Positions 57,904 through 64,000 of a stretch of 64,000 nt of DNA are shown here, piece after piece; the first letter of the stretch is position 1, and every line of letters begins with the position of its first letter. A program made the translations under genes and the position numbers. Below the pieces are notes generated by a model that saw nothing but the letters and a program-made list of their open reading frames with translations, was not told where the DNA came from and ran no database searches. The stretch spans positions 1 to 64,000 of the forward strand of contig NZ_ABCP01000002.1 of assembly GCF_000170835.1 (NCBI RefSeq), written 5' to 3'. This stretch comes from Marinobacter algicola DG893. GTDB lineage: Bacteria > Pseudomonadota > Gammaproteobacteria > Pseudomonadales > Oleiphilaceae.

Positions 57904-59370
57904 CTAGCAGGTGGGCATGGTCTGCAGGGCAAGCTTCCTGCGGATAAAGCGGCCCAGCACATCGACACCAATATTCAGCGATGCGGTGATCAGGATCAGC
58001 ATCATCGCACGATCAAACTGGATGTTCTGGATGGCGCTGTCGACGTAGAAACCCAGGGTGTAGATGCCCAGTATGCCGAGGATGGCAGTCTCCCGCATGA
58101 TGATCTCCCAGCGGTAGAACAGGAACGCCAGGAATGAACGGTAGACCCTGGGCACCAGTTCGTAGGTATATCGACTGAGGCCACTCGGTGCATCCGAGCG
58201 TAACCGGATGGAGCTGGACTGCCGGCCAATCAGGTGGCCGATGATGCCCCCGTTATGCAATGCCAGCGCGACGACAGCAGGCAACATGGACGGACCCCAT
58301 AGCTGCAATAGGATATACGCCAGGATGTATTCCGGCGTGGACCGCATAATCACCAGGAAGACATGCCCCGAGGTACGGCGAACCGGCCCACCGAAGTGAG
58401 TGGATATCAACGGGAAAGCCAGCAGTGCAATGATCCCGGTTGCAACCAAGGCCACTTGGGTCAGGATCACCGTATTCCAGATGCCCGGCATGGCCTGATT
58501 GACAAACATGTCCCCCAGCCACGCACCCATGCCGGCCCAGCCTTCTTCACCGCGCAGTGGTGACGGCACGATGTCCTGGGTGAAAAACCGGCCGACGTTG
58601 CTCCAGACAATCGGGAGACCTTCGCCAAGGAAAAACGGGGCGCCGAGGATATACACGGGCAACAGCTTCGGCTTGACCCAGAGCGGCATGGTGGCTATCA
58701 GCACGTAGAACAGGATCAGCATGGCGCCGGCGTCGGAATAGTGGCCTTGTGAAAACGCCGATTCGAGGTAGAAACCCAGGGTTGGCAAGCCAACAAAGCC
58801 GAGAATGGCGCTGGAGCGCAGGCCGCATTCCAGCCGGTAGGCGGTGTAAGTTCGCAGCTGCACCCAGCAATCCGGTATTTTAGTGTACAGAAAGGCAGAA
58901 ATGACGCCCGTACGGGGCGGCAATAGGCGACCAGGCTCGGGGTCGGCCTCTTCCAGGATTTCCGAATAGACCTTGGCGAAGATACCGGCGTAGGGGATAG
59001 CGATGGCTAAAACGCCTGTCAGCGGATGGAAGCCGAAAAACTGCAGGAAAATAAGCGCCCAGAACAGCTCGTGTATCGCCCGCACAAACGCGCACAGGAT
59101 CCTAACCGGCAGCCAGCGATAAACAAGCGCCAGAAGAAATCCACTGATACTGCCGAGAGCAACACCCACAAAGGCAAACGATACGGTTCTCAGCAGGGCC
59201 GTCATCAGGCCTTCGTTGCTGAAGAAGTTGGGCGTTACGACACCGAAAAAGAAATTACCGAGATCCCGCCAGGGATTGGAGGCAGTGATCGCAATGTCGG
59301 CAAACAGCAGTCCAACCAGCGCAATGGCCAGGAAAATAAAGCTCGTTCGGACGGTTGGCGACTGGAACAT
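57904..59370 (-). CDS. PhnE-like ABC transporter permease, tandem fusion
   Basis: A 488-residue permease that holds two PhnE-type domains in tandem: the first with 'LRTVSFAFVGVALGSISGFLLALVYRW' and 'YRLECGLRSSAILGFVGLPTLGFYLESAF', the second with 'TVILTQVALVATGIIALLAFPL' and 'EIIMRETAILGILGIYTLGFYVDSAI'. Single PhnE proteins are about 260-290 residues. With the PhnC/PhnD-like genes upstream it forms an importer. The presence of senB- and selD-type genes next door favours a selenium oxyanion over phosphonate as substrate, by inference. It lies 17 bases after the ATPase gene. Confidence 0.88.
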   Translation of the reverse strand: MFQSPTVRTSFIFLAIALVGLLFADIAITASNPWRDLGNFFFGVVTPNFFSNEGLMTALLRTVSFAFVGVALGSISGFLLALVYRWLPVRILCAFVRAIHELFWALIFLQFFGFHPLTGVLAIAIPYAGIFAKVYSEILEEADPEPGRLLPPRTGVISAFLYTKIPDCWVQLRTYTAYRLECGLRSSAILGFVGLPTLGFYLESAFSQGHYSDAGAMLILFYVLIATMPLWVKPKLLPVYILGAPFFLGEGLPIVWSNVGRFFTQDIVPSPLRGEEGWAGMGAWLGDMFVNQAMPGIWNTVILTQVALVATGIIALLAFPLISTHFGGPVRRTSGHVFLVIMRSTPEYILAYILLQLWGPSMLPAVVALALHNGGIIGHLIGRQSSSIRLRSDAPSGLSRYTYELVPRVYRSFLAFLFYRWEIIMRETAILGILGIYTLGFYVDSAIQNIQFDRAMMLILITASLNIGVDVLGRFIRRKLALQTMPTC

Positions 59371-59387
59371 GGAACGGATCGGCTTCG

Positions 59388-60041
59388 CTAGTAGAGAGAC
59401 ATGATGTCCGACGCGACCAGACGTTCTGCCGGTTCGTCGAGTGCTATCTGGCCGTCCTGAATGCCAACGATGCGATTGCAGTAGGCGAGCGCCATCTCAA
59501 CATCATGAAGTGCAAACACGCTGGCTGAAAAGCGATCTTTCAGCAACTGCATCACTTGATGCGCCATCGGTCCATCAAGGGCGGAAATTGGTTCGTCAGC
59601 CAGCAGCAGGGGGGCACTTCGATAAAGCGCACGGGCAATCGCCACTCGCTGGCGCTGACCACCGGACAGTGACGCTGTGGGTATCCACAGTTTTTCCGCC
59701 ATGCCCAGCGCTTTCAGCAACTCCCTTACCTTGTCCTTGTCTCGCGAGAATGGCCTCATCAGGGTAACGGTGTTGTACCAGTTGCCATGCTGATCGAGCC
59801 GCCCCATGAATACGTTGTGGAACACCGGTAACGCATTCACCAGGCCCAGTTCCTGAGGCACGAGGGACGAATTGCGATTGACATGCTGATGGATCAAACG
59901 CATCAGGGTGGATTTTCCCGCCCCGCTTTTGCCCACCAGGGCAACCTGTTCACCCTCCTTGACTTTGAGGGAGAGCGGGCCGATTACCCGCTCCCCTCCA
60001 AACGAGGCTGTGAGGCCTGATAAGTCGAATCCCGCCATCAA
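59388..60041 (-). CDS. PhnC-like ABC transporter ATP-binding protein
   Basis: A 217-residue ATPase, shorter than typical PhnC (about 260). 'ALVGKSGAGKSTLMRLI' (Walker A), 'VPQELGLVNALPVFHNVFMGRL' (Q-loop region typical of PhnC), 'ASLSGGQRQRVAIARAL' (signature) and 'LLLADEPISALDGPM' (Walker B) are all present. The gap between Walker A and the Q-loop is unusually short. Its start overlaps the binding-protein gene stop by four bases. Confidence 0.9.
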   Translation of the reverse strand: MMAGFDLSGLTASFGGERVIGPLSLKVKEGEQVALVGKSGAGKSTLMRLIHQHVNRNSSLVPQELGLVNALPVFHNVFMGRLDQHGNWYNTVTLMRPFSRDKDKVRELLKALGMAEKLWIPTASLSGGQRQRVAIARALYRSAPLLLADEPISALDGPMAHQVMQLLKDRFSASVFALHDVEMALAYCNRIVGIQDGQIALDEPAERLVASDIMSLY

Positions 60042-60913
60042 TCGAGGATTCCGATCTCTTCCGCGGTCTTGCTGATAGGCTCGTAATCATCGTTGGAGGC
60101 CGGGATGAAGCCGGAACGAGGGAAGCTTTCGAGAAGCGCCTGGTCATCAAGGTTGAGTAGAGCTTCCGTTACACGCTGCTTGAAGCCTTCACCGAAGCGT
60201 TCGTTCACATCGCCGCGAATGGTCCACTGGTAGTCCGGGTAGGCCGGAGTCTTCCAGATCACCTGCACGGCGTCGGTGTCGATATTGCCGTCTGCGAGCT
60301 CTTTCTCCCAAACCTGGAAGTTCAGGGCGCCGACCTCATAGGTGCCTGCTTCAACCAGGCGCAGTGTACGGGTGTGGTTGCCGCTAAAGCCCACACGTGA
60401 GAAAAACTCGTCCGGCTGCTCGCCGAAGGTTTCGCGGATATAGAATTCCGGCATCAGGCGGCCCGATGTGGAGCCTTTGGAGCCGAAGGTAAAGGTTTTA
60501 CCCTGCAGGCTTTCCTCCAGGGAGGCGAGCTCATCCGCTGGCTCAATTCCGGTGCTGGTGTTGGCGATGAAATAGGTCTCGAAGGCCTGATCCTCAACAC
60601 CCTGGGCAATGGCCTCGGAGCCCGGAACCAGACGGCGGGCCTGAACCCCGGACAGCCCGCCAAACCACGCCAGTTGAACCTGGTTGTTACGGAATGCGGA
60701 GACGGCAGCGGCATAGGACTTCACAGGAATGTAGCGCACGTCTACGTTCAATTCACTTGAAAGGTAATCGGCAACACCGCGAAAACGCTCAACCAGCTTC
60801 GTCTCGTCTTCGTCGGGAATTGCTGTGAAAACGAATGTCTCGGCCGAAGCAGACGCTGCGCCGAAACAGAACAGGCTGGAAACCATCAATTTCCGCATGA
60901 GATTCAAGGCCAT
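60038..60913 (-). CDS. PhnD-like substrate-binding protein, putative selenium-oxyanion importer
   Basis: A 291-residue periplasmic binding protein with a signal peptide ('MRKLMVSSLFCFGAASASA'). 'FTAIPDEDETKLVERFRGVADYLSSELNVDVRYIPVKSYAAAVSAFRNNQVQLAWFGG' is the PhnD/PtxB family opening, and 'FTFGSKGSTSGRLMPEFY' is the second-lobe ligand motif. A branch of this family, found beside selD and the TIGR04348 glycosyltransferase, is annotated as a putative selenate-binding protein; the gene context here fits that branch. The substrate is unproven. First gene of the unit, diverging from senB. Confidence 0.88.
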   Translation of the reverse strand: MALNLMRKLMVSSLFCFGAASASAETFVFTAIPDEDETKLVERFRGVADYLSSELNVDVRYIPVKSYAAAVSAFRNNQVQLAWFGGLSGVQARRLVPGSEAIAQGVEDQAFETYFIANTSTGIEPADELASLEESLQGKTFTFGSKGSTSGRLMPEFYIRETFGEQPDEFFSRVGFSGNHTRTLRLVEAGTYEVGALNFQVWEKELADGNIDTDAVQVIWKTPAYPDYQWTIRGDVNERFGEGFKQRVTEALLNLDDQALLESFPRSGFIPASNDDYEPISKTAEEIGILD

Positions 60914-61086
60914 TTGAATTTCCTTGTAGTTGGGATTGGATTTAGCAGGAGCAGATCACGAACAAACGCTCAAGGTCCATCAGAATACCGTGATTTACGC
61001 TAACTCTGAACATCTATACGATTCTGTTATCCAAACAGGTTATGAATACCGACTCAAAACTGAATACTTTACGGAAATCCGCCGCC

Positions 61087-62070
61087 ATGAAAATAGCGAT
61101 CATCACGCCTGCACCGGTTGGCTCCAGGGCCGGTAACCGGGCCACGGCGGAGCGGTGGAGCCATTTGCTCGAGCAGGCCGGGCATCAGGTTCTCATCCTC
61201 ACCGAGTACAGTAGCCAGCCTGCCGACCTGTTTATTGCATTGCATGCCTGGAGAAGCAGCGACGCGGTAGTGCGTATTCGCGACGACCATCCAGATACAC
61301 CATTGATGGTAGTGCTGACAGGTACCGACATCTACGACCACCAATACCGATACCCCGAACAAACCTTCAACTCCATGGCGCTGGCCGATTGCCTGATTGG
61401 GCTCCATCACCGGGTTGTTCGCGATATTCCCGAGCGATTTGCCACCAAACTGGTCACTGTGCTGCAGTCGGCCGAACAGCCAGAAGACCGGGCCATTGTT
61501 GATAACCGTAAATTTGGCATTTGCGTTATTGGCCATCTGCGGGATGAGAAAGACCCCCTCAGAGCGGCGTTGGCCGCAAGACGCTTGCCAGAGACATCAG
61601 CGATTCACATCATCAACGCCGGCAGGGCGCATTCACCAGAATGGGAGAATAGCGCGCTGGCCGAGCAGGCAGCCAACCCTCGTTTTCAATGGCTGGGTGA
61701 AGTCGATAAGCCAACCATCCAACAATTGATGCAGCGATCCCGGGCCATGGTGATCAGCTCGATCATGGAAGGCGGCGCCAATGTGGTATCGGAAGCATGC
61801 CGTGCTGGCCTCCCGGTTATTGCGTCGGATATCTCTGGCAATGTCGGCCTTCTGGGTGATGACTATCCGGGCTACTTCAGTGTGGGTGACGATACCGACC
61901 TCGCCAGGGTTTTACAGTGGGCGGAACAATTTCCCGAATTCCTCGAGGAATTGGCCGATCGTGTTGCTAAGCTCGCCAGCAATTTTACCCCAGAGGCCGA
62001 ACAGGCTGCCTTATTGGCAGCCATGGATCGGGCCGTGGCCGAGCGCGCAAGGCTCAGTCGCGAAGCGTGA
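61087..62070 (+). CDS. senB: SenB-like selenosugar synthase (TIGR04348 glycosyltransferase)
   Basis: A 327-residue GT-B glycosyltransferase starting 'MKIAIITPAPVGSRAGNRATAERWSHLLEQAGH', the signature of the TIGR04348 family, with 'VVLTGTDIYDH' and C-terminal donor-site 'VISSIMEGGANVVSEACRAGLPVIASDISGNVGLLG'. In selenoneine-producing bacteria SenB couples selenophosphate with a UDP-sugar to make a selenosugar. ATG 61087 was chosen by homology; an in-frame ATG lies 15 codons upstream. Its 3' end overlaps the convergent selD by 17 bases. No SenA (EgtB-like) gene is in the window. Confidence 0.85.
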   Translation: MKIAIITPAPVGSRAGNRATAERWSHLLEQAGHQVLILTEYSSQPADLFIALHAWRSSDAVVRIRDDHPDTPLMVVLTGTDIYDHQYRYPEQTFNSMALADCLIGLHHRVVRDIPERFATKLVTVLQSAEQPEDRAIVDNRKFGICVIGHLRDEKDPLRAALAARRLPETSAIHIINAGRAHSPEWENSALAEQAANPRFQWLGEVDKPTIQQLMQRSRAMVISSIMEGGANVVSEACRAGLPVIASDISGNVGLLGDDYPGYFSVGDDTDLARVLQWAEQFPEFLEELADRVAKLASNFTPEAEQAALLAAMDRAVAERARLSREA

Positions 62071-64000
62071 TTGGCTCAATAGGCCCGCTTTCGTCCTGGG
62101 GCAAGACCCGTCCGATAATGGCGGTGTGCGGGTAGCCCAGAGCTTTTAGCTCACTGATACAGGCGTCGGCCTGGTCTGCGGGTATGCTGGCGAGAAGGCC
62201 ACCGGCCGTCTGCGGATCGAAGATCAACGGGTAACGGGGGTGGTTGACCCACCTTTCCTGGTCACGAATGCCACGCCGCAGACGAATATTGGCAGGCTGC
62301 AACGAACTGAGGATGCCTGCTGCCGCAGTTTCCTCTGCGCCAGGCAAAATCGGTATTGCCATGAGATCCAGTTCCGCATCAACGCCGGAGGGGCGTGTCA
62401 TTTCAACCAGATGGCCAAGCAAACCGAAACCGGTTACGTCGGTGCAGGCTCGTGACCCATATCGGCGCAGGCACTGTGCAGCGTCCTTATTGGACTGCAT
62501 CATGGAGGCCAGGGCGGAATCAACCCAGCGGCCTTTCGCCGCCAGCTTGGCGTGGGCAGCGAACAGCGTCCCGGTGCCGATCGGCTTGGTCAGTAGCAGA
62601 ACGTCTCCGGCCCGCAGGCCTCCCTTACTCATGACGTCATCAGGATCAATCAACCCGTTGACCGCAAAGCCCAGTGCCAGCTCACGGCCTTCGCCCGTGT
62701 GGCCGCCCACCAACGCGCAGCCAGCTTCATTCAACACTTCCACGGCGCCAGACATCATCTGGTAAACCACGTCTTCCACCTTGGACTCTATGCCGTAGGG
62801 CACGGTCGCAACGGCGGTGGCACTCTGAGCTTCGGCGCCCATGGCAAACACGTCGCCCAGCGCGTGATTGGCGGCAACCCGGCCAAACACATAGGGGTCG
62901 TCAATAAAGGCCCGGAAGAAATCGACGGTGTGAACCACCGCCTTTCCGGGAGGCACGGTCAGTACGGCGGCGTCGTCCGGTGCGTGTAAACCAATCAGTA
63001 TGTCGTCACGCTCTATGGGTCGTAGCTCTCCCAGCGCCCGCGACAGCACGGTACTGCCGACTTTGGCGCCGCAGCCACCGCAACGCATGGCCACTGCGGA
63101 GATGGCCTGGGACGCTTCCTCAGGGTTTTGTGCGGCGCCAGTGTCGGGCAGGGCGGCATTCTCTTCCATGGCGGGAAGATCATTGAATTTCGCCATGAAA
63201 CGTCGATCGATGCTGTTTTTCCAGCGCCAGACCCAAGAACCAGCCAAAGACAGGTCACCCCGGGAGGCTACTGCGAATTTGTCGCCGGTACTGATCAGCG
63301 CCAGCCATTTTTTCTGCGGCCGGAACGGCTTCGCCGGCTTTCCGAGAGCATGGCGACGGAGGTTGTCCGCCAGTGGGCGGCCCTGACGAACGGCAAATAC
63401 GCCCGCTTTTTCCCGGGGATGATTCACAACGTTGGCAATGTCACCCGCCGCAAAGATATCGCCGTCGGTTTCTGTCTGCAGAGTGTCCGTTACCCGGATA
63501 AAGCCACCGTCGTCCAGGGCCAGGCCAGTGTCCCGCAGCCATTCGGGACCGCCGGCACGGGTGACCCAGAGCACTTCGTTGACCGACAGGGTGTCGCCGG
63601 ATTCCGTGGTCAAGCGATTGGCGGCAACCTCTGAAACTGCGGATCCCAGGTGAATCTTCACTCCACGGCTTGCGAGCGTTTCGGCGAATACTGCACGCAC
63701 CTTGGCGTTGTGGGTGGGGAGGATCTGCTGGTCAGCGTCAAACAGATGGAAATGCAATTGGTCCGGGTCGTGGCCGCGTTTTTCGAGCTCATTTCTTAGC
63801 CGGAACTGCATGGCCAGGGTGAGCTCAACGCCACCCGCACCGGCACCGACCACAGCAACGGTCATCGGGCCGTCATGGTTCTCCAGCCGCGATAGCAATG
63901 ACAACCAGCGATTATTGAATCCGTTGATAGGCTTGACGGGCACTGCATGCTCAGCAGCTCCGCTGACGTCACCTACCTTGGGAGCAGAGCCGATATTCAC
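62054..64000 (-). CDS. selD: Flavoprotein-SelD fusion (selenide, water dikinase), 5' end outside window
   Basis: The visible 648 residues contain a C-terminal part of an NADH-dehydrogenase-like flavoprotein ('VAVVGAGAGGVELTLAMQFRL' and 'DGDIFAAGDIANVVNHP', residues 1-270) and a complete SelD domain from about residue 300. The SelD active site is 'CGGCGAKVGS' with C310 and K313, so it uses cysteine rather than selenocysteine. Further motifs are 'DDAAVLTVPPGKAVVHTVDFFRAF' and 'GGHTGEGRELALGFAVNGL'. It makes selenophosphate from selenide and ATP. The fused flavoprotein may supply reducing power, by inference. The gene continues beyond base 64000. Confidence 0.93.
   Translation of the reverse strand: MNIGSAPKVGDVSGAAEHAVPVKPINGFNNRWLSLLSRLENHDGPMTVAVVGAGAGGVELTLAMQFRLRNELEKRGHDPDQLHFHLFDADQQILPTHNAKVRAVFAETLASRGVKIHLGSAVSEVAANRLTTESGDTLSVNEVLWVTRAGGPEWLRDTGLALDDGGFIRVTDTLQTETDGDIFAAGDIANVVNHPREKAGVFAVRQGRPLADNLRRHALGKPAKPFRPQKKWLALISTGDKFAVASRGDLSLAGSWVWRWKNSIDRRFMAKFNDLPAMEENAALPDTGAAQNPEEASQAISAVAMRCGGCGAKVGSTVLSRALGELRPIERDDILIGLHAPDDAAVLTVPPGKAVVHTVDFFRAFIDDPYVFGRVAANHALGDVFAMGAEAQSATAVATVPYGIESKVEDVVYQMMSGAVEVLNEAGCALVGGHTGEGRELALGFAVNGLIDPDDVMSKGGLRAGDVLLLTKPIGTGTLFAAHAKLAAKGRWVDSALASMMQSNKDAAQCLRRYGSRACTDVTGFGLLGHLVEMTRPSGVDAELDLMAIPILPGAEETAAAGILSSLQPANIRLRRGIRDQERWVNHPRYPLIFDPQTAGGLLASIPADQADACISELKALGYPHTAIIGRVLPQDESGPIEPITLRD

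Follow-up and report, generated by a model that had tools for sequence, protein, structure and literature searches.

Genes of selenium metabolism lie together at the right-hand end of a 64-kb stretch of DNA from Marinobacter algicola DG893 (64,000 nucleotides, here called the window), which is the first part of a 390-kb contig (C103) in a genome of 4.4 Mb that is 99.95% complete. An ATP-binding cassette (ABC) importer of the PhnDCE kind diverges there from a gene for the selenosugar synthase SenB, which in turn converges on a gene fusion containing the selenophosphate synthetase SelD. We consider it likely that selenium for a pathway to the antioxidant ovoselenol is supplied from this locus and that the locus also feeds the formation of selenouridine in tRNA. 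Protein families were looked for one at a time in the genome with profiles, whose scores were compared to curated cut-offs, and the following features were assigned.

57904-59370, minus strand: importer permease of 488 amino acids with two PhnE-like halves fused (TIGR01097 PhnE, 196 bits in two stretches, below the cut-off of 216.7; gene order the same in relatives)
59388-60041, minus strand: importer ATPase, PhnC-like, 217 amino acids (TIGR02315, 164 bits, below the cut-off of 266; with Walker A and LSGGQ motifs)
60038-60913, minus strand: periplasmic substrate-binding protein, predicted to bind a selenium oxyanion (selenite) (TIGR04553, 432 bits, cut-off 250)
60980-61020: conserved block of 41 base pairs (bp) in the divergent spacer between the binding-protein gene and senB (conservation in genus relatives)
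61042-62070, plus strand: SenB, selenosugar synthase (TIGR04348, 436 bits, cut-off 300; solved SenB 8fbx, E = 2e-41)
62054 to contig position 64330, past the window end, minus strand: SelD fusion of 758 amino acids, an NAD(P)H oxidoreductase-like domain followed by selenophosphate synthetase (N-terminal TIGR03169, 513.9 bits, cut-off 310; C-terminal TIGR00476 SelD, 301 bits, cut-off 125)

The divergent and convergent arrangement had been proposed in an original prediction made from the sequence of the window, and the open reading frames and families found at these positions bear it out. It is not a product of chance, because the order importer, senB, SelD is found repeatedly across the genus. 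The stop codon of the binding-protein gene overlaps an ATG at 60038 (TGATG), which is the likely start of the ATPase gene and would couple its translation to that of the binding protein, and the genes for SenB and the SelD fusion share 17 bp at their 3' ends. For senB, the ATG at 61087 appears to be the likelier start, because it is conserved in relatives and the first ATG is not.

The enzymes are of known kinds. SenB is identical to the solved SenB of Variovorax at 112 of 306 aligned residues (approximately 37%), and the residues that matter most according to mutagenesis, namely K158, N20, T23, E231 and the selenophosphate pocket (PMC10891094), are all kept. With the numbering of that study given first, the catalytic K158 corresponds to K170, the donor residues N20, T23 and E231 to N32, T35 and E243, and the pocket residues H58, R61, T83, T85 and R155 to H68, R71, T93, T95 and R167; H235 of the EGGAHV motif is replaced by N. 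At the family level, this protein is predicted to make a selenosugar from selenophosphate and a UDP (uridine diphosphate)-sugar. Likewise, the SelD part, which retains the C-x-x-K active-site motif (RCGGCGAK), is assigned as a putative producer of selenophosphate, and the half fused to it is the NADH oxidoreductase long known as a partner of SelD (PMC2432076). The genes belong to selenium metabolism and SenB and SelD are consecutive steps, as had been proposed.

The destination of the selenium lies elsewhere in the genome. Neither the window nor the 17 kb beyond it contains senA, in agreement with the original prediction, but a gene for the selenoxide synthase OvsA exists on another contig. 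It is the only strong match to the SenA model in the whole genome (contig C86, 22826-24157; 430 bits, cut-off 420), and its product scores 657 bits to PDB 8u41, 'Selenoxide synthase OvsA', to which it is 64.4% identical, compared to 181 bits to EgtB, 177 to SenA and 86 to OvoA. The next gene overlaps ovsA and encodes a protein of the 4-mercaptohistidine N1-methyltransferase type (TIGR04345, 296 bits, cut-off 170). EgtD, which supplies hercynine for selenoneine, was searched for with TIGR03438 and gave no match in this nearly complete genome. Ovoselenol is reportedly made by OvsA acting on histidine (Kayrouz et al. 2024, Nat Chem, as cited in PMC13188914). Considering the identity to the solved enzyme, the adjoining methyltransferase and the absence of EgtD, ovoselenol rather than selenoneine is the likely product, and the C86 protein is predicted to form the carbon-selenium bond on histidine. 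The selenosugar, which had previously been suggested as a possible end point, would then be an intermediate, since OvsA and its methyltransferase are encoded outside the window.

That the C86 protein is instead a SenA and the end product selenoneine is highly improbable. It does pass the NCBIfam cut-off for SenA, but its similarity to solved SenA is far below that to solved OvsA, hercynine would have no maker in this genome, and true SenA genes in two relatives (G057 and G073) score 512-513 bits on the same model, with egtD adjoining senA in G073. Selenoneine was hence rejected as the product. The SenA model (cut-off 420) accepts OvsA proteins (about 419-448 bits in the genus; in this genome the one at C86, 22796-24268), so automatic annotation will label ovoselenol producers as selenoneine producers. 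One relative, G057, has a true SenA and an EgtD in its genome as well as an OvsA with methyltransferase, and may produce both compounds. Compared with the sen cluster of Variovorax paradoxus (SenA, SenB and SenC/SelD), which serves selenoneine synthesis, the locus has SenB and SelD side by side in common, whereas it lacks SenA and EgtD, has OvsA on another contig, carries SelD fused to an oxidoreductase and has an importer attached. With the known OvsA/ovoselenol system (PDB 8u41), this genome has in common the OvsA itself and a methyltransferase gene that overlaps ovsA, and it differs in that the genes for selenium supply stand apart from ovsA and are accompanied by an importer.

The link between the two loci is supported by their joint distribution. 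Of 73 genomes in the genus, 64 carry senB together with ovsA and nine carry neither, and the 67 more complete ones give a table of 60/0/0/7 (Fisher p = 1e-9), whereas senB and egtD are unassociated (p = 1); these counts are phylogenetically non-independent and one ovsA (in G055) is split. Two observations count against an ovoselenol end point: ovsA and senB sit on different contigs, and a methyltransferase adjoins ovsA in only 5 of the 15 loci examined, so the last methylation step is not shared by the whole genus and many of its species may end at unmethylated selenohistidine. The separation of the contigs would also suit the idea that the selenosugar made by SenB is itself the end product or a storage form and that OvsA uses sulfur in this organism. 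We regard this as very unlikely, given that none of the 73 genomes has one of senB and ovsA without the other and that the closest solved homologue of OvsA is named a selenoxide synthase.

A second outlet for selenophosphate is provided by selU, which is present elsewhere in the genome. The original prediction had also proposed a genome-wide look for the genes of other selenium uses; selU was found, the match to the SenA model proved to be OvsA, and profile search detected selA neither in this genome nor in most others of the genus. Selenocysteine was hence rejected as a use of selenium here, and the sole SelD must supply both SelU and SenB.

The new element at the locus is the assignment of the importer, which is foreshadowed by an NCBIfam family name for which we found no supporting experiment. 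By its score, the binding protein is a member of the family TIGR04553, named 'putative selenate ABC transporter substrate-binding protein', and it falls below the cut-off of the phosphonate-binder model (TIGR03431 PhnD, 147 bits, cut-off 261). Among 117 relatives, 80 carry the family and all 80 have SelD, whereas none of the 23 relatives that lack SelD carries it (p = 4e-15, with phylogenetically non-independent counts). When one genome was taken per other family of the order, the importer/SelD table was 9/0/13/22 (p = 0.0014), and in a sample of 299 genomes from the phylum, SelD was present in 22 of 24 carriers compared to 84 of 299 overall (p = 1e-11). Carriers without senB and selD, which would have spoken against a selenium role, were therefore absent among the 80 importer-bearing relatives as far as SelD is concerned, and the phylum sample held two exceptions, one genome that is 78% complete (G370) and one with a lone binding protein that has no transporter genes and no capping tyrosine (G252). 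A related genome, G378, has two tandem binding proteins, in one of which the capping tyrosine is replaced, as in the lone copy of the SelD-less G252.

Gene neighbourhoods point in the same direction. The importer is adjoined by selU and/or selD in genomes G081, G088, G092, G094, G098, G101, G167, G314 and G378, forms a cluster senA-selD-importer-egtD in G309, which also has senB, and lies near senB-senA-egtD-selD in G073 and near egtD, senA and selD in G134. In some carriers, such as G107, G108, G171 and G347, the stretch examined around the importer contained no selenium gene. Members of the genus without senB retain the importer, which in G012, G020 and G050 stands directly beside SelD. Because it stays beside SelD in these senB-less genomes and beside selU in other families, the importer is best read as serving selenium use in general, and a role specific to selenometabolites was rejected on the same grounds. 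The tie between importer and selenium that had been proposed from a single locus thus extends across many families.

With regard to the anion that is carried, the nearest solved proteins are PhnD1 of Synechococcus (7s6g) and Prochlorococcus (5lq5), and the identity of 42% to 5lq5 settles the fold. All 11 ligand-pocket residues are identical to those of the Prochlorococcus protein (Pm_PhnD) and are nearly invariant in approximately 150 family sequences, in which D205 is D or N and N176 is sometimes D or S. This identity suggests that the binding protein can probably bind an XO3 anion, whichever that anion is. The pocket of Pm_PhnD grips three oxygens while a tyrosine closes over the fourth position (PMC5700983). 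Selenite is a pyramid with three oxygens and the fourth position free, and its monoanion is similar to monoanionic phosphite, whereas selenate resembles phosphate. Because the pocket is that of a phosphite-binding PhnD and phosphite is a three-oxygen anion like selenite, selenite is predicted over selenate as the ligand.

The alternative that the importer carries selenium as selenate or as an organic selenium compound appears rather unlikely. The family name refers to selenate, in disagreement with the pocket comparison, and selenate is a common oxidised form of selenium in water. However, the tyrosine-capped pocket of Pm_PhnD, whose residues are the same here, favours XO3 over XO4 and binds phosphite approximately 3500 times tighter than phosphate (PMC5700983).

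The main counter-evidence comes from the known ligands of the relatives, and several points weigh against a selenium importer. Pm_PhnD binds phosphite with a dissociation constant (Kd) of 51 nM, compared to 182 uM for phosphate and 109 uM for methylphosphonate (PMC5700983), and the PhnD1 proteins of Synechococcus bind phosphite at 0.67-4.3 uM (PMC10284923), so that the nearest solved relatives span 0.05-4 uM for phosphite with weak binding of phosphate. In the Synechococcus ligand screen, shifts were seen only with phosphorus cocktails, the main text being silent on selenium anions, and in Synechococcus WH8102 the importer was reported to be induced by phosphorus deficiency (PMC10284923). No measurement of selenium binding or uptake for any TIGR04553 member was found in the open-access literature, in which a search for TIGR04553 or PhnD together with selenium also returned nothing relevant. 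Furthermore, 14 of 94 SelD-bearing relatives have no importer, which indicates that it is not indispensable and that selenium can enter otherwise.

These ligand data would fit an importer of phosphite or phosphate whose placement by selenium genes is incidental, and the pocket, identical at 11 of 11 positions to one of nanomolar phosphite affinity, speaks for it. We nevertheless judge this explanation unlikely, since the importer is confined almost perfectly to SelD-bearing genomes, adjoins selenium genes in many families and has no recognised phosphorus genes beside it. In addition, phosphite is already covered by a complete ptx operon on contig C104 (L043:7188-11612), which encodes an ATPase, a PtxB-like binding protein, a permease, a phosphite dehydrogenase (464 bits to solved PtxD) and a LysR regulator. 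Among the genes neighbouring the importer, no link to phosphite dehydrogenase or other phosphorus genes was found. A plain phosphite importer tied to phosphorus genes was therefore rejected, as the separate operon exists. Compared to PtxABCD, the binding protein shares the fold and the general plan of the pocket, but the two are separate branches and the PtxB-like protein of this genome differs at 4 of the 11 pocket positions. Because selenite resembles phosphite, phosphite binding neither proves nor refutes a selenium role; the binding of phosphite, which was part of what the original prediction had named as evidence that would overturn it, does not discriminate, since tight phosphite binding is documented for the solved proteins nearest to this one (PMC5700983, PMC10284923), which are nonetheless members of the same selenium-linked family. 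The reading that fits best is an importer for selenium in general, with selenite as its most probable ligand.

The picocyanobacterial PhnD1CE systems have the same pocket and gene order as the importer of M. algicola and have so far been read as orphan phosphite/phosphate importers. Their PhnD1 proteins exceed the TIGR04553 cut-off of 250 (294 bits for 5lq5 and 334 bits for 7s6g), and in a quick FastTree phylogeny rooted with a single PtxB-type outgroup, the cyanobacterial clade nests inside the family between two proteobacterial groups, each with selenium-linked members. Shah et al. found PhnD1CE in each of the 97 picocyanobacteria that they studied; the majority of these can use neither phosphite nor phosphonate, and the function of the importer was left unexplained (PMC10284923, PMC5700983). 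In a set of 40 picocyanobacterial genomes that encode the binding protein, many being partial, a SelD-type fusion is found in 33 and selU above its cut-off in 32, and selU lies a few kb downstream of the importer in six Cyanobium-type loci (L153, L154, L156, L160, L163 and L164), being beside PhnD1CE only in some Cyanobium. NCBIfam names the picocyanobacterial fusion 'oxidoreductase/SelD-related fusion, not SelD' (842 bits for the one tested); considering that nearly all copies retain the C-x-x-K motif and most hosts have selU, the 'not SelD' label looks doubtful. In a search that mostly excluded subscription journals, no paper linking picocyanobacterial PhnD1CE to selenium was found.

The 41-bp block between the binding-protein gene and senB probably represents overlapping divergent promoters or a regulator's operator, serving both the importer and senB. 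Its left part is kept 5' of the importer in some relatives without senB. A simple sigma-70 scan detected nothing in the block, and across the surroundings of the locus, predicted sigma-70 promoters and terminators did not exceed those in shuffled sequence. The block was looked for near ovsA and selU and was not found there, so there is no evidence of a shared regulon.

Taken as a route, the periplasmic protein would capture a selenium oxyanion with three oxygens, in all likelihood (hydrogen)selenite, which the ABC importer would then carry inward. Selenite would be reduced to selenide, possibly with help from the oxidoreductase half of the SelD fusion, and the SelD part, whose family and active-site motif support this role, would convert selenide to selenophosphate. 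Part of this would be spent by SelU on tRNA selenouridine, and part would be combined with a UDP-sugar by SenB, with its conserved catalytic residues, to give a 1-selenosugar. OvsA would then move the selenium from the selenosugar onto histidine, and the overlapping OvsM-like enzyme would N-methylate the product to ovoselenol, as suggested by the identity to solved OvsA and by the published pathway.

Ovoselenol-type synthesis is thereby assigned to the majority of genomes in a large genus, with its genes split between two loci that are not linked, and a search around senB alone would miss ovsA. According to a 2026 review, a specific high-affinity system for selenium transport has yet to be identified in prokaryotes (PMC13188914), and none of five selenium transport candidates was required in a Methanococcus mutant study (PMC11097638). 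The locus of M. algicola offers a concrete candidate for such an importer, with a predicted ligand and pocket. Whether TIGR04553-type PhnDCE systems in general, including picocyanobacterial PhnD1CE, are dedicated high-affinity selenite importers, the first in prokaryotes, with their phosphite affinity a side effect of the likeness between phosphite and selenite, is a proposition that we hold to be evenly balanced. If true, it would account for the retention in all picocyanobacteria of a 'phosphite' importer through which most of them can gain no phosphorus (PMC10284923, PMC5700983).

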